NCBI GenBank assembly: GCA_026874595.1
Contig: CM049313.1
Span: 66,890,659 to 66,954,658, forward strand
DNA from: Sipunculus nudus
Lineage: Eukaryota > Annelida > Sipuncula > Golfingiida > Sipunculidae
DNA: 64,000 nt
Reading direction: 5' to 3'
Under the pieces are notes generated by a model. It was not told the origin of the DNA and ran no database searches. It saw only the letters and a list, made by a program, of their open reading frames with translations. Of the stretch, positions 1,867-64,000 are shown piece after piece; the first letter of the stretch is position 1, and each line of letters opens with the position of its first letter. Both the position numbers and the translations under genes were made by a program.

Positions 1867-2480
1867 CTACTGCCTCCTGATCAACTGACCTGAGCTTCCT
1901 GAGTGTGGGAGTCTTTTAGATAGACGAGGCTTACTCAGGTTCTGATTACAGTGCACAATGTTGTGATCACTGATCAGGGGCCAAACTTTCACAGATTCTA
2001 TCACATTATCACAAAAGCGAGGGATAACTAGGTCATGAATATGACCATAAGTGTGGGTAGGACTATACTCACATGCTGTAAAGAATTTTTGGGACTCGAG
2101 AAGATCATGTAAGCTGACTGACTCTGGACTGCTTCTTTTGCCCCAATGCACATTAAAATCTCCAAGAATGAGGAAACTGCATGGTGATGACTGAAAAGAA
2201 GTGATGTATCAGCAAGTTCACAAGGAAAATCTGCTTGTGTGAGGCCGTTTTTGGATGATGGAGGAGGCCTGTATAGAAGCACTCACTTAAGACTGGAGGA
2301 ATTATTTATCACAGTTACCTCCCAGCACTCCAATGACTTGGCTTTTTGGGTTGATGCAGATGGAACACACATGAGTGTGGTTCTATGAATGAGGGCCAGA
2401 TCACCATCCCTACCACGCTGTCTATTGTTTCTGATCATATCATAGCCCTCAGGAAGATGGCCAGCGGCGACTCTGTTCTG
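1867..2480 (-). pseudogene. LINE apurinic-type endonuclease domain, C-terminal half
   Basis: This part of the LINE encodes the end of an exonuclease-endonuclease-phosphatase fold that would nick the target DNA. The frame 2028-2282 reads YRPPPSSKNGLTQADF, and the overlapping frame 1867-2151 reads HIHDLVIPRFCDNVIESV followed by WPLISDHNIVHC. The SDH triplet near 1975 is the family's catalytic Ser-Asp-His. A frameshift falls near 2150, in the block that should read GDFNVHWG. The N-terminal catalytic residues of the domain are missing, because recognisable text stops near 2480. Confidence 0.85.
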
Positions 2481-14274: not shown

Positions 14275-16170
14275 GCTCAGACCTCTAAGACAAGAGATCA
14301 TGTCTTCTCCCTCTAAGAATCCTCTACTTCCCAGGCTTTATTTTCTCTTAGGAGGCATGCCATCTGCGGCCTTTTAAATCTCTAAGAAGCCATGACATCA
14401 CTGGTATTTTTGTCCGCGGGAAGCCATGCCATCTACCGTAACGGACCTTTTACGCTCCAAGCAGCCATGACTTCACTGGCCTTTTTTTCACTAAGAAGCC
14501 ATGCCATCTACGGCCTTTTTAACCTCCGGGAAGCCATGACTTCACCGGTCCTTCTAATCTCCATGAAACCCTGAATTCACTGGCCTTTTCCCTCTAAAAA
14601 GCTATGCCATCTACGGCCATGTCTTCTCTGCCTTTTTTCTCTTTAACAGCCATGCCTTCTACGTCCTTTTTAATCTCTAGAAAGCCATAACTTCACTGGC
14701 CTTTTTTCTCTAATAAGCATTGGCATCTACGGTCCTTTAAATATCCAGGCAGCCATGACTTCACTGGCTTTTTTTACTAAGAAGCCATGCCATCTACGGC
14801 CTTTTTAATCTCAATGACTGGCTTCACTATCCTTTTTTTTGCTTGAAAGCCATGTCATATACGGCCTTTTTAATCTCTAGGAAACCATGACTTCACTGAC
14901 CTTTTTTTCTCTGAAAAGTCATGCCATCTACGGCCCTTCTAATCTCCAGGAAACCATGACTTCACTTACCTTTTTTCTCTAATAAGCCATGGCATCTACG
15001 ATCCTTTAAATATCCAGGCAACCATGACTTCACTGACCTTTTTTTACTAAGAAGTTCTGCCATCTACGGCCTTTTTAATCTCAACGACTGGCTTCACTAT
15101 CCTTTTTTTTTTGCTTGAAAGCCATGTCATATACGGCCTTTTTAATCTCTAGGAAACCATGACTTCACTGACCTTTTTTTCTCTGAAAAGTCATGCCATC
15201 TACGGCCCTTCTAATCTCCAGGAAACCATGACTTCATTAGCCTTTATTCGATAAGAAGTCATGACATTTCTGGCTTTTTTTGGAGGATATGACTTCTCCA
15301 TTTCTTTTTCCTTTGGGAATTATGGGATATCGTGCTTTTTTACGTCGAGGATTTCATGTTGTATTTGACCTTTTTTTCTGAAGGAAGCCCTTTTTTGTCC
15401 GGATTTTTTTTTCTGTCGGAAGCATTGACTTATCATGCTCTTTTCTTGTCTAGGAAGACATTACGTATCCGGCTCTTTTTATGTATAGAAAGCCCTGACT
15501 TACAGGGCTCTTTTTCTGTTGGAAGGCATCACTTATCCGGCTCTTTGTATGTCTTGGCAGCCATGACTTATCAGGCTCTTCGTGTTCTCTAGTAAACCAT
15601 GTCTGATATGTCTCTTTATTTTTTCTCTAGGAAGCCTGTTCTTTTTTTATAGGAAGCCATGAATTAACTGGCTCTTTTTTATCGCTACGAACCACGACGC
15701 ATCCAGCCCTTTTATCTTTTTGTAGCCGTAAATTCTCTGGCTCTTTTTATGTAAATTGTCACGACTTCTATTTCCTTTTTTTTCCTTTAAGGATCCATCA
15801 TATTTGTATCGTATATTAATACCGTATACGAACTTCAGAAAGCCATGCATTCCCCATCCCTGCTTTTGTAAAAGACATGAGATTCTCAGCTCTTTTTTCC
15901 TGTTGGGACATATGACTTTGCCATTTCTGTCTTGTTTTTGGAACCATGATTTTATACATGTACTTTTCTTTAGGAAGACCTGACACCTGTTTTTTAGATC
16001 ACCGTGATCTCAATCTCTGACCTTTATTTTCTGTAGGAACAAGTGATTTCATTATCTCTTTCTTATACAGGATGCCATGTCCTTTCCTCTATTTCCCTCA
16101 AAAAGAAAAACCAATGACATATCTATATTGTTTCTGTCAGAAGCCATGGTTCCTCTATTTATCTTTTTTC
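14275..16170 (+). repeat. Satellite of alternating ~34-bp monomers
   Basis: About 1.9 kb of degenerate tandem repeat. Two monomer types alternate: one built on GAAGCCATGCCATCTACGGC plus TTTTTAATCTC, the other on GCCATGACTTCACTGGCC plus TTTTTTCTCTAA. Together they form a dimer of about 68 bp. A longer block of about 280 bp at 14740-14970 is repeated at 15020-15240, which shows higher-order structure. Divergence increases toward both edges, most strongly past 15300, as expected if unequal exchange homogenises the centre. Short open frames across it are by-products. Confidence 0.9.
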
Positions 16171-17640: not shown

Positions 17641-18465
17641 GTTACATGTATCTGTTTGTTATGCTCGGGATATTACATAACTTGGTATGTGCTAGGCATT
17701 CTGATTTGTGTTAAGCGCAAACCCTGGGCGTTGCTATTTGAAACACACTTGCTGAACTCTCGCGGAGTGTAAACACAGCGTGCTCAAGAAGTCTTGAAAT
17801 TTCGGGTCTGTTCATGCGCTATGGGCGCGTGTATTGTTGTAGTCTAGAGGGTTCCAGAATGGAAGGTTCCAGGCATCAGGTGAAAAAGCTATAAATAGTG
17901 GCTGTGTATAGAGCCGGCAGAGAGAAAGATACTAGCGGACAAGAAAGAGAATAACTATCTCGTCAGTTTTGGGACGTTTCCAATAATTGCAGAACTTACA
18001 GATATTCACCGGCCTTTTACTGACATACGGATAGCCTTCAGTTTGCCTTTGGGATTATTACCGGAACTTCACTTTTGGATTACAACAAATTGTTTTCAAG
18101 TTAAAATCAAACTGTTCTCTGGGAAGGTTTATTTGGTCTGTTTACGTGGGTTATTTGTGTTTAAGGACTCTTTTTGAGCTGTGACAGTGCTTTTATTCAG
18201 AAATCAAAGCCTAGGATCCGGACACTCTGGTGATGTACATTTTTATAACTGTTATACTGTGTAATTGTATTGATTTAGTGTATTGTAATGTTAGGATTGT
18301 TCTAAAAATAAATTATAATTATTTGTTAACAAAAAAATTGACTTCTTTATTCATTCCCCTAGACATTCTACGCTGTCTAGTGTTGCGGAATCTGATATTT
18401 TTATCTCCGTAACAAAATTTATGCTCGTCGAGATTACGTGATCTGTTGTTATTAGGTTCCGTAAC
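17641..18465 (+). mobile_element. Solo LTR-like unit, copy 1 (TGTTAC...GTAACA family)
   Basis: The unit begins TGTTAC (or GTTAC) and ends TTCCGTAAC(A). The 5 bases AGTTT at 17636-17640 recur at 18466-18470, a perfect 5-bp duplication if the ends are GTTAC/GTAAC. A TATA box (CTATAAATAG) lies at 17889-17898, and an AATAAA signal lies in the 3' third near 18309. The last 220 bp are closely similar to those of 60825-61611. No coding sequence. This fits a solo LTR left by recombination. Unusually, an internal CCGTAACA at 18407-18414 is followed by AAA and a primer-site-like stretch, so the true LTR may end there. Confidence 0.8.
17889..17898 (+). promoter_or_regulatory. TATA box of solo LTR copy 1
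   Basis: CTATAAATAG lies mid-unit, at the expected place for the U3/R promoter of an LTR. The second copy has TATATAAAGG at the equivalent position (61081-61090). Confidence 0.6.
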
Positions 18466-18471
18466 AGTTTT

Positions 18472-39959: not shown

Positions 39960-41125
39960 AAAATATTTCAGGGTGAATTTGTTTTGATGGCGGCACTTGG
40001 AGAGAATTTCAGCTCTTGAGTTCAACAATGATCCAGGGGGGGCCGTAGCTATAAGTAGCTTTTCAGACAAGCAGAGATCACACTTCCTAGTCCCACAGTA
40101 GTAAGGTGCTGCCTTGGCAGGAGAGCTTGTAATTGATATTGTTGTCTTTAAGTGACCAAATGTGTTTAGACAGTTCAGTATTTTTAGCGTGGGATCTGTT
40201 CCGAAAGGATTGCTTGTGGTTATTGTATCTTGTCTTGAAATCACCTTCAGTACACCCTATGTAGTGTTTCACGTCATTGTCTGTTCTAACTGTTGCCTTA
40301 TAGACAATGCATTTCAGCTGACATTGACCATTCATAGGACATTCGTCTTTTTTACGGCAGTTACATTGTTTTTGAGGTACATTCACAGCATTGTCGGTAT
40401 TTAAAACCTTCATATTATGTTTGCTGATCAGGTTAGACATGTTGGGTAGACAGCTATAGCTAATTTTCAAATTGTTCCTGTTGAATAACCTGTGGTACCT
40501 GTGATGTTGAGGGAAGTGCTTTTCAACTAGTTTCATGAATTGTCTGCCAATGTTGGTTTTTACATGACGGCTGTAGGGTGGATTAAACCATATTATTTTC
40601 CTTTTCCTGTTTCTTTTGCTTTTCACTGTGGGTTCAACATATTTTAAGCTTTCTGAGAACCCGCTTTTCGCTAAAGCTTTGTCATACATGGGCTTGGCTT
40701 TCATAAATAGCTCGTTATTGCAGGAGATGTCAGATACACGTTTGCTGATCATCATAGGTATCTGCCTAATGATAGCTGGGGGGTGATTGGATTGTGCGTG
40801 GATATAGAGCGGGTCATTGTTCGGTTTTCTGTAAGGGTAGAAGATGTCATTTTGGAGGTCAAATGTTACGTCTAAGAAATCTGTGCAGGTCAGGTTAGTT
40901 TCAATGGTTAACTTTAACCCAACATTGGAAAAGAGTTTGATAATTTTCTTACGGGTGCTGTCTGCTTTGGGTCCAGACATGTTGGGGAAACAACCTAAAC
41001 CGTCATCACGATACAGGCCTAGAGCATTTTCACCAAATTCCTTTTTCAACATATCTAGGATGTATAAACCAACTATTTCGCTTTGTGACACAGAAAATGC
41101 CTTGTTACCATAAAGTTGGAGCTTA
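39960..41125 (-). pseudogene. Penelope-like element: RT C-terminus plus GIY-YIG endonuclease
   Basis: The long minus frame (stop at 40087) encodes the end of a Penelope-like RT joined to a GIY-YIG endonuclease. The copy starts in RT motif B (SQSEIVGLYILDML). The catalytic YRDDGLG follows (about 41000-41015), then thumb text TCTDFLDVTFDL. A Cys-rich linker reads KQCNCRKKDECPMNGQCQLK, and the endonuclease reads VYKATV...HYIGCTEGDFKTRYNNH (about 40195-40320). A frameshift near 40110-40120 moves the C-terminus (CGTRKCDLCLSEKLLIATAP, SKCRHQNKF) into the frame 39951-40244. The first ~100 residues of the frame upstream of 41125 are not Penelope but repeat X and foldback sequence. The enzyme primes reverse transcription at nicks; this copy is 5'-truncated and frameshifted. 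Confidence 0.92.
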
Positions 41126-41170
41126 TGACGAAAAAACTTGCTAATACATTCTAATGGCCGAAACTGCAAG

Positions 41171-41180
41171 TATAAAAGGG
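41171..41180 (+). promoter_or_regulatory. TATA box in repeat X
   Basis: TATAAAAGGG, a textbook TATA box, follows GCAAG. Copy 1 has the degenerate GTAAAAGGGC. If X is an LTR or terminal repeat, this would be its promoter. Confidence 0.35.
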
Positions 41181-41844
41181 CGCTCTGTCTCAAAGCTCTG
41201 CCGTTCAAAAGATTGGGTTCGACTCGACTGGCATGGCTGGTGTTACGACCCATAATGTAATAACCGGCCCATAATGTTATAACGGCCCATATTGTAATAA
41301 AAACGACCCATAATGTAATAATAGCCCGTAATGTAATAAAAATGGCCCATATTGTAATAAACATACCTTGCCCATATTGTAATAAAATCGCAAGTGGGTA
41401 AAACAGCCCATATTGTAATAAAATCGCGATGGGTAAAACGGCCAATAATTTTATAAATCAAATTTCATGCAAATTAACCTAGACAATTCAAATATTGAAT
41501 TTCTCGTGACACGAATGTGTAAGCGAACATACAAGTATGAAAAAGCACTGGATTACATAATGACTAACTGTTTAAAACGGTGACCAAGCTAATATTAGCG
41601 AAATATGGCAATGATTCATGTTTATCCTTTTGTTGAATCAGTGTTTAAATAGGGTAATAAAGTATTTAAACAAAATAATATGATATATATTTATATATAC
41701 GGCTGTAGTATTTTGGCTCCTTAAAAAGCCCAACAAAAAACACGTATTGAATGAATTTTGGGTTTGCTGAAAACACTTTAATATTTCTTCTGGCTACATT
41801 TCTAGGATTTATTTAAGCGCCTGGGTCCATAAAAACTAATACAC

Positions 41845-42415: not shown

Positions 42416-43641
42416 CGTTATATTTTCGTGTATGAAAATACGATTTTTTTTCAATTGTGAACCATGGTTTCATTAAGGTTAGTAACAGGTTCATGGGGAG
42501 GGTATGGGAGGGGACAGGATATTAAGTAAATGACACTGAGCGTCTGCCCTGTCATTCTTGAGCTTAAACATATGTTATTACAATATAAATATGTTATTGC
42601 AATATGGGCCGTTTTTCCCACTTCCAGTTTTATTACAACATGGGTAGGGTATGATTATTACAATATGGGTCGTTTTTATTTCAGTATGGGCCGTTATTAC
42701 AATATGGGGCATTTTTTATTACATTATGTGCCGTTATTACAGTATGGGCCAGTTTTATTACAATATGGGCAGGGTATGGTTATTACATTATGGGTCGTTT
42801 TTATTACTATATGGGCCGTTATTACAGTATGGGCCGGTTATTACATTATGGGTCGTAACAGCTGGGACTCCGCTGCTGGGATCGGTGGAGGGGATGTGGG
42901 TTGCTTCTACCTTTGTTGCTGTGGGTGTTGTGGCTTTCCTAAAAGGTTGTCGGTACGGGCTGGACGGTGGAGTCTCTCGCGGCTCTCTGCTTGGCTTGGT
43001 GGCATCGCGTCTTGTGGCTCTGAGAACTATGCTTTAGGAGCACACAGGGCTCGAGGTCTTGACCACAGCAACCTGTAGCTGCTCGATGAGCAAAACATCT
43101 TCAGTCAGTCAGTCTTGACCACAGCAACATGCAGCTGTTCGATGAGCAAATACATCTTCAGTGGGTCAGTCATAAAGTTGGATTTGCACTTTGGTTTGTG
43201 AGTTCACATGCATTATTTTATGTTAATGCATCACTCGTAGCCATATTTTAAGATAATTGACTGTTAAAAACGATATCGCTGCAATAGGACGATTGGATTT
43301 GCCCTGTATTTGCCCGGTATGTCTTGTGTCGCGGCTTTAGTTTTGTTTCGTGTATGAACTAGATGAGCAAATTATCAATCAGACAAACAACAAAGGGACG
43401 ATGGATGAAATCTGATCTCCATTGTGGAGATCATCTAGGCTTGTTTTCCAGGAACCGTGAGTCAGTTAATTATCATCGCTTATATTTCGTAAATAAATTA
43501 TCAGGCATTACTGTACAGCTTTATGGTAAACTTAATCGCCTTTTTTATTCTACTTAATATATCATGAATTTAATACCGTAATCATTCGGGATAACGACAT
43601 TTTATCTCTTGTCTGCCGCCAAAACTATATGAACACGATGC

Positions 43642-43848: not shown

Positions 43849-43892
<44 letters not shown>
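43849..43892. repeat. (TA)n array abutting miniature LTR element
   Basis: About 44 bp of TA ending directly at the 3' LTR of the miniature retrotransposon. Confidence 0.97.
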
Positions 43893-43894
<2 letters not shown>

Positions 43895-43895
<1 letters not shown>

Positions 43896-44013
43896 GACAA
43901 ATTGCTCAGGGGAAAATACTGGGCCGATACGGGAGTCGAACCCACCTCTTTGCTAGAAAAGCAAGCTTCACCAGCGAGACAGTTCGGTCCGCTTTTATGT
44001 ACACTCCGTAACA
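43895..44013 (-). repeat. TRIM 3' LTR (LTR2)
   Basis: About 119 bp, begins TGTTACGGAGTG. Only 2 nt separate the A and B boxes, so the anticodon part of the tRNA-like segment is deleted. The 3' end (…GAGCAATTTGTCT) runs straight into (TA)n, so the terminal TTCGTAACA is lost. Confidence 0.8.
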
Positions 44014-44024
44014 CACCCCCTCTT
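44014..44024 (-). promoter_or_regulatory. TRIM polypurine tract
   Basis: AAGAGGGGGTG directly precedes the TG of LTR2, the usual position for the plus-strand primer of LTR elements. Confidence 0.75.
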
Positions 44025-44114
44025 AAGAGCGTTCTACCATCAGAACAAGACTAATTATCCCAGGAGTCACACTTTGGTGAGCTTATTCCCTGGGCCGCAG
44101 AGTCAACCGTCTTT

Positions 44115-44129
44115 CCGGACAAACCTCCA
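44115..44129 (-). promoter_or_regulatory. TRIM primer-binding site
   Basis: TGGAGGTTTGTCCGG lies 3 nt after LTR1. It differs from the tRNA-Pro-type site TGGGGGCTCGTCCGG at three positions in these 15. The second copy reads TTGGGGCTCGT at 63990-64000, one mismatch in 11. Confidence 0.75.
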
Positions 44130-44132
44130 TTT

Positions 44133-44273
44133 TGTAAGGAAGACCAATTGCTCAGGGGAAAATACTGGGCAGATCCGGGATTCGAACCCATGTTCGTGGC
44201 GTTCCAATCACTTCGCTAGAAAAGCAAGCTTCACTAGCGAGACAGTTCGGTCCGCTTTTATGTCACCTGATAT

Positions 44274-44275
<2 letters not shown>
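44133..44275 (-). repeat. TRIM 5' LTR (LTR1)
   Basis: About 143 bp. The start TGATATCAGGTGACATAAAA aligns with TGTTACGGAGTGTACATAAAA of LTR2 with several changes. Between the A and B boxes 19 nt remain, against 32 nt in the copy at the right edge of the window. It ends CTTCCTTACA, a mutated form of TTCGTAACA. Confidence 0.8.

Positions 44276-44356
<81 letters not shown>
44276..44356. repeat. (TA)n array abutting the TRIM 5' LTR
   Basis: About 75 bp of TA directly outside LTR1. The TRIM is thus bracketed by TA arrays on both sides. Confidence 0.97.
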
Positions 44357-44598
44357 GTGCAGGTTTAGAATAAGAGTGTTACTTATAATCATAATAATAA
44401 TTTAGTTTTATAAAACGCGTCACTCTTAATCTTTACCTGCTTCGACGACAGACTATAACACGGCTACACCATACCATAAATTATCATTATTAATCTATCA
44501 TTATATTTATTTATGATATATATAAACAATGTAATACATGTAGAGGTTCAATACATCACAGTGAAAGTGCTCTACCATGCAGGGAGCATCTATATTTA

Positions 44599-48875: not shown

Positions 48876-49065
48876 TGTTACATGTGCCCTTTTTATTGTG
48901 TAACACGGGCGTAACTCGTATTGTAGCGGCCTCGCCTGGCCGCGTGTTGCACTCTCAGTTTAATCCGTACTGGTTTAACTATCTTTGTCATGTTGTGAAT
49001 TAAGTGTTGTTTTTCTTCAGTGTTATACCGCTCTGTAGGCCAAAAAGCACCTTACAACGGAAGGT
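48876..49065 (+). mobile_element. 5' fragment of the solo-LTR family, copy 3
   Basis: Begins TGTTACATGTGCCCTTTTTA and shares TTGTGTAACACGGGCGTAAC followed by TCGT with the start of 60825-61611, then TTTAATCCG and TTGTCATGT. A GC-rich insertion (GGCCTCGCCTGGCCGCG) separates the blocks. The promoter and 3' part are missing. TA-rich sequence abuts the left end. Confidence 0.65.
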
Positions 49066-54146: not shown

Positions 54147-55152
54147 TTGGTATGGAAAGGTTCTCTGGGCAGGAACACCAGAGTGCGCACAGAGCACCAA
54201 CACTAATCAGATCACTGAAGGCGTAGTATAGACCAACAAAATTGTAGGTCGTATGTGAAAATTTGAGCTGGATTCACAATACAATACCATGCTTTCATTG
54301 AGCTGATTATATTTTTTCTTTGTGCCCAGTTCATTGTTCTCAGCCAATAAATTAATTAGACTTGGCGCGAGAAAAAGAAATTGTATAACATGTCAAAACA
54401 CGGCTGCAGGCATACGGATTGGTATAACTGAGAGAGTTGTCAACGTTACCTGTCACCGTCTAACAGTCCTCCTATAGCTCAATATTGGAGTTTTTCCATT
54501 GATTTCACAGCAGATAAGGCTTGGGTCATTTAGTCTTCGCCATCCTTGATATCATGCGTACTTGTACACATGCCAATGAGAGAAAATGTGACGGACTAAT
54601 ATGCAAATATCAGGGACTCCCCCCATTATACTGAACAAGCCGTAAGAATGAGCAATTACGGAAGTTTCTACCAGGGTTACGTCTTTTACTCATTTTATTT
54701 GCAAACACTATTACTAAAGGCTTTGCGAGGAAATATGGTGTCATGATTACAACACATAATAACGTTTCATAACCCTGCAGCAGAACTACTTGTTAGCTTT
54801 ATCAGCCTGGTTAAAATCGTGATAACAACATTTCCTTGGTCTGTCAAGGCAGATTTTTAAAACGAAATGGCAGGTGTTTCAACCACTGTTGAACTTTCAA
54901 TTTAAATTAAAAAAAGTAAACATCGATGAAACCTGAAACTGAAAAAGGTTGTGTATTTTATGCGTCATATTGCGATTTCGACAGGGACTACAGCTGAGCT
55001 ATATTCGAGCGAATCGCAGCTGCCGCACCAACATTAATTAACAGTTTACCTTAAATCCAATAAGAAATGTTCATGAATCGGCTGGACACACAATGCAAGA
55101 TATTCAAACTCACGATGGAGGACAATGCTACAAGTTGTGCCATCTTTAATCT

Positions 55153-56868
55153 TTTTATGCCCTCGCCACAAAGTGGCCAGGGCATATAGTTTTACCGATG
55201 TCCGTCCTTCCGTCCTTCCATCCTTCCGTCATTCCGAAATCAAACAGTTGTACGGACTGCAGATACTGGCCTGATTTTTGTTGTAGGTAGATAATGACCA
55301 GTTACAGATCGAATTCGCGTTTCGTCCCAGTTGACCTACTTTTGACCGTTTTACGGCTCCTAAACTTAGAAAAGTTCGTTCATGAAAAATAGAAATTTTC
55401 ATGACAAATACACATGTACGGACTTTTTTTCGCAATGCCTGCAAATATTGGCCTGATGTGTGGCAGATATAGAGCAGTTACAGATCGAGTTCGCGTTTCG
55501 TCCCGGTTGACCTACTTTTGACCGTTTTACGCCTCCTTAATTCTGAAAATTTCATGAAAAATAGAAATTTTCATGACAATACACATGTACGGACTTTTTT
55601 CGCAGTGCCTGCAGATATTGGCCTTATTTTGGTGTGCGGGCAGATGTAGACCAGTTACGGATGAGTTCGCGTTTCGTCCCAGTTGACCAACTTCTGACCA
55701 TTTTACGGCTCCTGAACATAAAAATTTCATGAAAAATATAAATTTTCATGACAAATACACATGTACGGACTTTTTTCGCAATGCCTGCAGATATTGGCCT
55801 GATTTTTGTGTGTGGGCAGATAATGACCAGTTACAGATCGAGTTCACGTTTTGTCCCAGTTGACCTACTTTTGACCGTTTGACGGTGCCCTAACTTAGAA
55901 AATTTCATAAAAAAATATAAATTTTCATGACAAGTGCACATGTACCGACTTTTTTCTCAGTGCCTGCAGCTACGGGCCTGATCTTTGGTGTGTAGGCAGA
56001 TAATGACCAGTTACAGATCGAGTTCTTGTTTTTCCCCAGTTGACCTACTTTTGACCATTTGACTGCTCCTAGATCCTGAACTTAGAAAGTTTCATGAAAA
56101 ATAGAAATTTTCATAACAAATGCATATGTATGGACTTTTTTCCTCAATGCCTGCAGATACCACCCTGATTTTTTATGTGTGGGCAGATAATGACAGTTAC
56201 AGATCGAGTTCGCGTTTCGTCCTACTTTTGATTGTTTTACGGTTCCTAAACATAGAAAATTTCATGAGAGACAGAAATTTTTATGGAAAATGCACATGTA
56301 TAGACTTTTAATTACAATGCCTGCAGATACTGGCCTGATTCTTTGTGTGTAGGCAGATAATGACCAGTTACAGATTGAGTTCTTGTTTTTTCCCAAGTTG
56401 TCCTACTTTTGACCATTTGACTGCTCCTGAACTTTTTTTCTTGAAAAATAGAAATTTTCATAACAAATGCATATGTACGGACTTTTTTTCCTTAATGCCT
56501 GCAGATACCACCCTGATTTTTTTATGTGTGGGCAGATAATGACAGTTACAGATCGAGTTCGTTTCATCCCGGCTGACCTACTTTTGATTGTTTTACGGCT
56601 CCTAAACATGAACAATTTCATGAAAGACAGAAATTTTTATGGAAAAATGCACATGTATGGATTTTTAATTACAATGCCTGCAGATACTGGCCTGATTATT
56701 GGTGTGTTGCTTGATAATGACCCGTTACAGATCGAGTTTGCATTTTGCCCTTGTTGACCTACTTTTGACCATACGACACCTCCTGAACTTAAAAAAAAAA
56801 TTCAAAATTTAACAAATGTTTTTAATTTTCCCCAGGCGGGGGCATTCGTGTCGTTCCGACACATCTAG
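55153..56868 (+). mobile_element. Helentron-like (HINE/pearl-type) element with ~175-bp tandem core
   Basis: The left end is a hairpin (TGCCCTCGCCAC AAA GTGGCCAGGGCA) followed by CCGTCCTTCCGTCCTTCC. The core is nine tandem units opening with (C)GGACT...GCCTGCAGATA...GGCCTGAT at about 55252, 55420, 55591, 55766, 55946, 56131, 56305, 56479 and 56658 (spacing 168-185). The right part has CCAGGCGGGGGCA, then hairpin GTGTCG TTC CGACAC (56848-56862), then CTAG before T. A 3' hairpin plus CTRR is the Helitron/Helentron signature, and internal tandem cores typify the pearl/HINE elements known in oysters. No Rep/helicase is encoded. Confidence 0.7.
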
Positions 56869-59954: not shown

Positions 59955-60090
59955 TTGATAATTCGGCGGTGTAGAGTGCTCTGGTGAGCATTATCGCTCG
60001 AAAGACGGCGTTGGAATTATGGCCGCAAGGTTGTGGGTTCGAGTCCTGTTCTCACTTTCTTCCGCGCTAAAGTTAAAGGGGCCTAATCGC
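59955..60090 (+). mobile_element. tRNA-derived SINE head
   Basis: GGTGTAGAGTGCTCTGGTGA at about 59967 resembles an A box region, and GTGGGTTCGAGTCCTG at about 60033-60048 contains a B box close to GGTTCGANTCC. Spacing is about 50 nt. The sequence cannot be folded into a full cloverleaf with a matching acceptor stem, so a SINE or tRNA pseudogene is more likely than a tRNA gene. It differs from the TRIM tRNA-like segment. Confidence 0.5.
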
Positions 60091-60824: not shown

Positions 60825-60826
<2 letters not shown>

Positions 60827-61607
60827 TTACAGGTGCTCTTTGTATTGTGTGACACGGGCGTAACTCGTGTTGTTGTTACATTTTATGTTTAATCCGAAAT
60901 GGTTGAACTCTCGTTGTCATGTGAGCCTTGGGTTTTCACGCCTGGTCGTAGGTCACGTGATGGCCCTGGTATGTGAAGGTACGCAAAGTGATGTCTTCTC
61001 GATAATTCCTGAAACGCGTGATGTGCAAGAACTTATAGACTGTTCGAGAAGTGGAAAATTCCCGGCTTGGGGTGTGAAGGTATATAAAGGGGCTGTTTTT
61101 TAGAACCAGAGGGCAGACAGCAGAGCAGATTCCAGCGGACGCAGAAGCGTGTGTCAGATTCTAAGACCTTATCCGACGAATGCGGCAATTATACATTTTT
61201 TCAAAGACTTTCTCCTGGATTTTATGCATTTGGACTTCAGTTTACTTTGTGGGTTGTTGCAAGAACTTTCCACAGGACTGTCATCCTCCGAGAGTTTACA
61301 TTTAAAGGACTTATCGTTGTGACGGTATTGGTATCCAGGTACTGTATCATTATCTTTCTGTGTGATTGTATTAACTTGTTGCTATAACGCTGTTTTACTG
61401 TATAATTGTATTGATTTAGTGTATTGTATTGTTAGGGTTGTTTTTAGAATAAATTATAGTTATTTGTTAACAAAAAAACACTGACTTCTTTATTAATTCC
61501 CCTAGACATTTCACGCTGCCTAGTGTTACAGAATCTGATTCGTTTTTATCTCCATTACAAAATTTGTGTTCATCACGCATACGTGATCTGTTTATATTAG
61601 GTTCCGT

Positions 61608-61611
<4 letters not shown>
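60825..61611 (+). mobile_element. Solo LTR-like unit, copy 2
   Basis: Begins TGTTACAGG, ends GGTTCCGTAACA, 787 bp. TATA box TATATAAAGG at 61081-61090; an AATAAA signal near 61449 lies in the block shared with copy 1 (GATTTAGTGTATTGTA, TTATTTGTTAACAAAAAAA). As in copy 1, an internal near-terminus ATTACA (61554-61559) is followed by AAA and TTTGTGTTCATC. No coding potential. TA arrays of about 50-60 bp on both sides show it inserted into a single (TA)n tract, which hides the target duplication. Confidence 0.82.
61081..61090 (+). promoter_or_regulatory. TATA box of solo LTR copy 2
   Basis: TATATAAAGG, in the same relative position as the TATA box of copy 1. Confidence 0.6.
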
Positions 61612-62993: not shown

Positions 62994-63537
62994 CAAGCCG
63001 ATACTTAACTGTAATTATAATACATAAACAGATTTTAATATGAAAGATCAAAGATACATCGTATGTGAGATTTGTTCTGAATCTCATCCCAGGTCAAGTC
63101 CATAATTGATTTATTCCTTGCTTTTTTAAACCTATTTTAGATACATTTTGGGGAAATAACCACCGATTTTATTACTGCTTGTATACTTTACTATTATGAA
63201 CACCTTCAAAATTTCAGTTTGGTTCCGGACGACGTGCATGACAGGGCTTCACTCGACGATTGAAATGGCGTCTACCGGTCACTCTTGCAACTACTCTCAG
63301 CGATCCGTCAGGCGCAGGACTCCATTTATTAGATGGAAATTAGAAATTACTCATTATTTTGTGTAAAGGGACTTGCTCGATAGGTTAAAAAGGTACTAGG
63401 CCACAAACATACGCTATATACAAACATGTAAGCGAGTGCCCTTCTTTAACTTGATTAAATGCTATTGCTCTGCTGTCATTGATTTGCTCTCAAACTCAAC
63501 TAGAAAGTTAACTCGACATATATCCTAATTATAATTT

Positions 63538-63746: not shown

Positions 63747-63829
63747 TACAGTAAACTTCAAAATTACGACCACCATCGGGACCTCGATATGGTGGTCGCA
63801 TTAGCGAGGTGGTCGTCTACGCGAGGGCT
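63747..63829 (+). mobile_element. Tigger/pogo-like terminal fragment
   Basis: TA then CAGTAAACTTCAAAATTACG followed by ACCACCATCGGGACCTCG and GGTGGTCG repeats, the usual look of a pogo/Tigger terminal repeat. It is cut short by the start of the second TRIM LTR, so no right end is visible. Confidence 0.5.
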
Positions 63830-64000
63830 TATTATAAGGGGAGACATAAAAGCGGACTTAACTGTCTCGCTAGTGAAGCTTGCTATTCTAGCGAAGCGGT
63901 TGGTGCGCCTGACTTGTGCGCCACCGACGTGGGTTCGAATCCCGGATCGGCCCAGAATTTGCCCTGAATAATTTGTCTTCGTAACAAAATTGGGGCTCGT
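63830..64000 (+). mobile_element. Second TRIM copy: LTR plus start of interior, cut by window edge
   Basis: The LTR runs from about 63830 (TATTATAAGG, degenerate TGTTACGG) to TTCGTAACA at 63978-63986. Then AAA and TTGGGGCTCGT (63990-64000), which matches the tRNA-Pro-type primer site at 10 of 11 bases. The tRNA-like segment is the best of the three: A box TAGCGAAGCGG (63889-63899) fits TRGYNNARNNG, and B box GGTTCGAATCC (63932-63942) fits GGTTCGANNCC exactly, 32 nt apart. Between them GTGCGCC...TGCGCCAC can form an anticodon-like stem. The ACATAAAAGCGGAC block at about 63844 is shared with both LTRs of the first copy. The rest of the element lies outside the window. Confidence 0.82.
63889..63942 (+). 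promoter_or_regulatory. Pol III A and B boxes inside TRIM LTR
   Basis: A box TAGCGAAGCGG and B box GGTTCGAATCC with tRNA-like spacing. Together they form a type-2 internal Pol III promoter. Whether it is active cannot be told from sequence. Confidence 0.7.

Follow-up and report, generated by a model that had tools for sequence, protein, structure and literature searches.

A probable Helenus-type TRIM with A and B boxes in its LTRs in a 64-kb window of the Sipunculus nudus genome

In a window of 64,000 nt of Sipunculus nudus DNA (by window we mean the whole stretch analysed), we found a 381-bp unit on the minus strand, read 44275 -> 43895, that we consider, with a probability of about 85%, to be a Helenus-type TRIM present as an old copy. 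An autonomous LTR retrotransposon likely supplied in trans the enzymes for its copying. The TRIM reading proposed in the preliminary description of this DNA is supported by a pair of LTRs, a spacer, a primer-binding site (PBS), a purine tract and A and B boxes, as well as by a second locus in which the same junction between LTR and PBS is present. The anatomy of a TRIM could be recognised from one copy and part of another by means of the tRNA-Pro primer site. The particular family, compared by description only, is probably a new member of the Helenus-type elements, and likely a further family to be added to the TRIMs bearing tRNA-derived sequence.

Structure of the unit

The succession of LTR, AAA spacer, PBS, gene-less interior, purine tract and second LTR, as claimed at the outset, was confirmed. 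The features of the unit and of its insertion site are the following:

44276..44356, no strand: insertion site, (TA)n tract flanking the 5′ LTR
44133..44275, minus: 5′ LTR, 143 bp, TGATATCAGG...CTTCCTTACA, its start set by alignment to the 3′ LTR, its end by where the PBS lies and by comparison with the related locus
44255..44263, minus: TATA-like ACATAAAAG of the 5′ LTR, with the A box starting 45 nt further downstream
44208..44218, minus: A box TAGCGAAGTGA of the 5′ LTR, 1 mismatch to TRGCNNAGYGG
44178..44188, minus: B box GGTTCGAATCC of the 5′ LTR, exact to GGTTCGANNCC
44159..44162, minus: TTTT, 15 nt past the B box, possibly a weak Pol III terminator
44014..44132, minus: interior, 119 bp including spacer, PBS and purine tract, free of TTTT
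44130..44132, minus: AAA spacer, the same as at 63987-63989
44112..44129, minus: PBS, like the complement of the tRNA-Pro 3′ end at 13/18 bases (12/15 over the first 15)
44016..44024, minus: polypurine tract AAGAGGGGG, 2 nt (TG) ahead of the 3′ LTR start TGTTAC
43895..44013, minus: 3′ LTR, 119 bp, beginning with TGTTACGGAG
43945..43955, minus: A box of the 3′ LTR, TAGCAAAGAGG, which fits the looser pattern TRGYNNARNNG without mismatch
43932..43942, minus: B box of the 3′ LTR, GGTTCGACTCC, separated by 2 nt from the A box
43851..43892, no strand: insertion site, (TA)n tract flanking the 3′ LTR

The direct repeats are represented by two gapless blocks of 60 and 50 nt with 92% identity; BLAST gave 81.9% identity over 127 columns (E 6e-21), and with the LTRs aligned from TG, 105 of the 118 gap-free columns were identical. 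The repeat is hence real. In the 3′ LTR 25 bp are missing, of which 17 bp would lie between its boxes and 8 bp at its end, and 7 of the first 12 columns of the two LTRs are alike. The start of the 5′ LTR (TGATATC) is no inverse of its own end (CCTTACA), and the start of the 3′ LTR (TGTTACG) is an inverted copy of the LTR end at the related locus (CGTAACA). Target site duplications (TSD) could not be read for the unit because both of its outer ends abut long (TA)n tracts, from which we also consider these ends probably eroded.

A polypurine tract before the 3′ LTR is present, and it is readable at this one locus only. We counted 241 purine runs of at least 9 nt in the window (both strands, 128,000 positions) and, by simple arithmetic on these two values, the chance of a run so placed is less than 1%. 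As regards coding capacity, a single ATG frame of at least 40 aa overlaps the unit (46 aa, the longest), and for a stop-to-stop frame of 138 aa, which lies on the plus strand at 43957-44373 and enters the TA repeat, no Pfam match was obtained.

The same structure could also be read as part of a satellite or tandem array of such an element, amounting to about 1.45 units, and not as a single insertion. Tandem arrays are reported, in the excerpts considered, for biv-TRIM, for Cassandra and for LTR-11_DR, a Helenus family of the zebrafish, and the LTR pair differs at its outer ends. Yet there is just one interior between the two LTRs, with (TA)n on both sides, and we consider this reading very unlikely.

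Primer-binding site and related locus

The 15 bases after the AAA spacer show 3 differences from the complement of the tRNA-Pro 3′ end, all of them transitions, and the 18 bases show 5, while the matches to tRNA-Lys and tRNA-Phe were 8/18 each (Pro, Lys and Phe being the three tRNAs compared). The tRNA-Pro primer sequence was taken from the excerpts of PMC10993922 and PMC12217144, and the identical 18-mer is given as a tRNA-Pro PBS in those of PMC1769482. When all window positions on both strands were ranked by their match to tRNA-Pro over 15 bases, 44129 tied as the best site with 9389, a site that lies within no LTR found in the window. Over 18 bases 9389 was better (4 mismatches against the 5 of 44129, with which 23495 and 63956 tie), and over 11 bases 44129 has 3 mismatches, a level common to 71 sites of the window. 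Taken by itself, the PBS of the unit is no more than fair evidence, which becomes strong through its position and through the related locus.

This related locus was the only other place found with E <0.01 when the unit was compared by BLAST with the 64-kb window (63840-63990, 79.6% over 152 columns, E 1e-22), so that the loci of this family in the window are two. Its features are the following:

63830..63986, plus: LTR, left end approximate, aligning poorly before 63840
63844-63852, plus: TATA-like ACATAAAAG
63889-63899, plus: A box, exact
63932-63942, plus: B box, exact, 32 nt from the A box
63977-63986, plus: LTR end CTTCGTAACA
63987..64000, plus: AAA spacer and start of a tRNA-Pro PBS TTGGGGCTCGT, 10/11, cut by the window end

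Precisely, 63990 is the sole site of the window with 1 mismatch to the 11-base tRNA-Pro primer, and it lies 4 nt past the LTR end of this locus. The LTR start aligns poorly to both LTRs of the unit. The left flank (63751-63823) is possibly the left end of a pogo/Tigger-like element, in which the related locus seems to have inserted.

We weighed on these data an origin of the unit from two independent insertions of a tRNA-headed SINE, or from a dimeric SINE, 263 bp apart by chance. A and B boxes are typical of SINE heads, and the two repeats differ by the 17-bp gap and at their ends. Against this, the spacer and the PBS past the repeat are common to a locus 20 kb away, with a match to tRNA-Pro exactly where an LTR element needs one; at that locus the repeat is followed by AAA and PBS and, as far as the window reaches, by no poly-A or simple tail. 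Furthermore, the 3′ LTR of the unit starts with the inverse of the sequence that ends the LTR of the related locus, and two insertions leave the purine tract at the LTR start unexplained. A single tRNA-headed unit with a LINE-type or simple 3′ tail, the form expected of a SINE family, was not encountered, AAA and PBS following the LTR in both of the two readable junctions. Since the related locus repeats the LTR, the AAA and a better tRNA-Pro site, we consider two such insertions very unlikely.

A and B boxes and likeness to tRNA

To find pairs of boxes, we ran a strict scan in which TRGCNNAGYGG and GGTTCGANNCC were each allowed at most 1 mismatch, at a spacing of 10-70 nt. Two pairs were found in the 64-kb window, one in the 5′ LTR and the other at the related locus (63889), and none in 20 first-order Markov sequences. 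A loose scan (TRGYNNARNNG, gaps from 0) returned 12 pairs, of which 7 are on the tRNA-like strand of the three LTRs, one is on the opposite strand of the 5′ LTR and 4 are elsewhere in the window. The boxes are hence present in all three LTRs, and both are exact at the related locus only, where their spacing is the normal one of 32 nt; it is 19 nt in the 5′ LTR and 2 nt in the 3′ LTR. Because of these two latter spacings, the unit copy is probably dead as a Pol III promoter. Each LTR of the unit has two TTTT runs near its boxes, the first ending one base ahead of the A box and the second 15 nt past the B box; there are no TTTT runs in the related locus.

The preliminary description had placed a tRNA-like segment with A and B boxes in both LTRs. 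The boxes are there, and no cloverleaf was recognised. ARAGORN called no tRNA over the window and, with permissive settings on the unit, gave four low-scoring calls scattered on both strands. No Rfam family reached its gathering cut-off over the window; at E <=10 over the unit there were 20 sub-threshold matches, many of them to TA repeats, and the best likeness to a tRNA model was that of tRNA-Sec, which scored 19.0 and 13.7 bits on the two LTRs, the cut-off being 47. At the related locus 3 sub-threshold matches were obtained, none to a tRNA family; only a 13-base tmRNA match falls at the T-loop. Folding showed no cloverleaf by eye, with z-scores of -1.68 for the 5′ LTR, -1.95 for the related locus, 0.16 for the 3′ LTR and 0.13 for the interior. 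As neither a cloverleaf nor a match to a tRNA model was recognised, it is the two boxes alone that point to a tRNA origin.

A reading with the tRNA starting at GCGGACC was dropped; the A box TAGCGAAGYGG sits further downstream.

Transcription and possible copying route

In the copying route that we propose, Pol III would begin transcription within the 5′ LTR near 44230, about 12 bases ahead of the A box, would read through the weak TTTT at 44162 in the same LTR and then through the T4-free interior, and would terminate at the corresponding TTTT of the 3′ LTR. The RNA so formed would carry a repeat R of about 70 nt at its ends. The minus-strand DNA would then be primed by tRNA-Pro and the plus-strand DNA by the purine tract, and the product would be inserted by a borrowed integrase. 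The TATA-like box could, instead or additionally, direct Pol II to start close to that position.

This last point leads to a different account of transcription, in which the TRIM is transcribed by Pol II from the TATA-like box, while the A and B boxes, left over from a SINE or tRNA once captured, have ceased to drive transcription. The ACATAAAAG motif is identical in all three LTRs and always 45 nt upstream of the A box (44000/43955 in the 3′ LTR, 63844/63889 at the related locus), so that it lies about 30 nt upstream of the expected start; moreover, the unit copy combines a poor A-B spacing with TTTT runs able to stop Pol III early. On the other hand, the exact boxes of the related locus, at their normal spacing, look maintained, and Kojima, in the excerpts of PMC10886601, argues from box conservation for the use of Pol III. 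In addition, the core CATAAAAG of the TATA-like box occurs 8 times in the window (both strands), 3 of these occurrences being in the LTRs here described, where it may be present by chance. We regard transcription by Pol II with relic boxes as possible, if rather unlikely.

The two signals may also act together, as a hybrid promoter in which the TATA-like box and the A and B boxes, at a constant spacing between TATA and A box in the 3 LTRs, would target one start site. This is a doubtful proposal, drawn from motif positions. If it were true, one element could give both short RNAs made by Pol III and a genomic RNA of full length made by Pol II, and this would answer how TRIMp3 templates get past their own Pol III stop signals. 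The wider question concerns the use of Pol III by such LTRs and the passage of the genomic RNA beyond the stop signal of the 5′ LTR. We found in the open literature no test of Pol III transcription of such LTRs; the excerpts of PMC10886601 call the point unvalidated and draw, for Helenus, no conclusion on Pol III transcription without experiments.

Comparison with known elements

The preliminary description knew of no described animal case of a TRIM with a tRNA-bearing LTR. This was wrong: TRIMs with tRNA-derived sequence in their LTRs were published in 2024 by Kojima, who named them Helenus (TRIMp3), and the parallel between Helenus and Cassandra was already drawn there (PMC10886601, excerpts). 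According to the same excerpts, Helenus is hosted by six animal phyla, by fungi and by one plant (Selaginella), its elements are 311-1263 bp long with a PBS and a purine tract, and its TSD in animals is of 4 bp. Primers of bivalve Helenus include tRNA-Pro, Gypsy-13_CGi having the same primer type; for most Helenus families no functional tRNA was predicted, and in most of their LTRs the boxes take the forms TRGCY, YGG and GGTTC.

Like Helenus as there described, the unit is gene-less and shorter than 1.3 kb (381 bp, within 311-1263), with boxes in both LTRs, a tRNA PBS and a purine tract. As for the boxes, GGTTC and TRGC are present in all three LTRs, whereas in box A the fifth base is Y in 0/3 (G, A, G) and YGG is present in 1/3. 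We liken the unit to the published description of Helenus in the structural features compared, with box A departing.

Three other systems were compared. Cassandra, a plant TRIM for which Pol III transcripts are reported (PMC10886601, excerpts), similarly has the promoter of a small-RNA gene inside the LTR and would work alike in principle; its LTRs, though, carry 5S rRNA and its hosts are plants, whereas tRNA-like boxes are present here. Ajax, a nemertean TRIMp3 known to us from the same excerpts, is likewise a TRIM whose LTR includes part of a Pol III promoter, but this part is 5S-derived, and Ajax is 421 or 434 bp long, with a 5-bp TSD and a tRNA-Leu primer. The bivalve biv-TRIM (Satovic 2019, PMC6934838, excerpts) resembles the unit in its short interior and its purine tract; unlike the unit, it is described with TDRs of 202-218 bp, an interior of 77-80 bp, a polypurine tract that is mostly GGGGAGA and no PBS that is unambiguous. 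We set biv-TRIM aside by description, as the LTRs of 143 and 119 bp, the interior of 119 bp and the tract AAGAGGGGG do not fit it.

Among the matches listed, which cover open papers, there were no other descriptions of tRNA-bearing TRIMs. A search by exact pattern for relatives returned 0 in viral contigs and 0 in prokaryote genome contigs.

Possible mobilising partner and other features of the window

An LTR-like unit of 787 bp, TGTTACAG...TTCCGTAACA, lies at 60825-61611 between (TA)n tracts, with partial relatives at 18244-18466, 17845-18069 and 48876-48993 (85.6%, 62% and 70% identity, respectively). The first of these pieces holds GTAACAAAATTTATGCTCGT, which is alike at 17/20 positions to the LTR/PBS junction of the related locus and is the best match in the window besides that locus; the next ones were at 54233 (15/20) and, with 14/20 each, at 63175, at the unit's own junction and at the homologous place of the 787-bp unit, 61554. 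BLAST of the TRIM pieces against the 787-bp unit gave nothing better than E 0.05. The junction likeness weakly hints at a mobilising lineage that the TRIM and the 787-bp unit might have in common.

A 456-aa open frame (40087-41457, minus) resembles by eye Penelope-like elements, with a GIY-YIG-like end; in a Pfam search of 10 chosen ORFs of the window, no match was obtained for this frame. The start of the frame (41245-41457) is overlapped by minisatellite arrays, which are found again in inverted orientation at 42591-42861. At 1870-2208 (minus) there is a weak match to a LINE-type endonuclease domain (PF14529, E 0.0004), scoring 20.7 bits where the cut-off is 27.4, and at 669-1037 a possible piece of reverse transcriptase was noted by eye, with no Pfam match.

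At 60036 an exact B box GGTTCGAGTCC is preceded, 5 nt upstream, by an A box with one mismatch, possibly as part of another tRNA-derived repeat. The window also contains a satellite array at 55257-56796, with a period of about 176 bp and 8.7 copies, and a second array at 14617-15236, with a period of about 68 bp.
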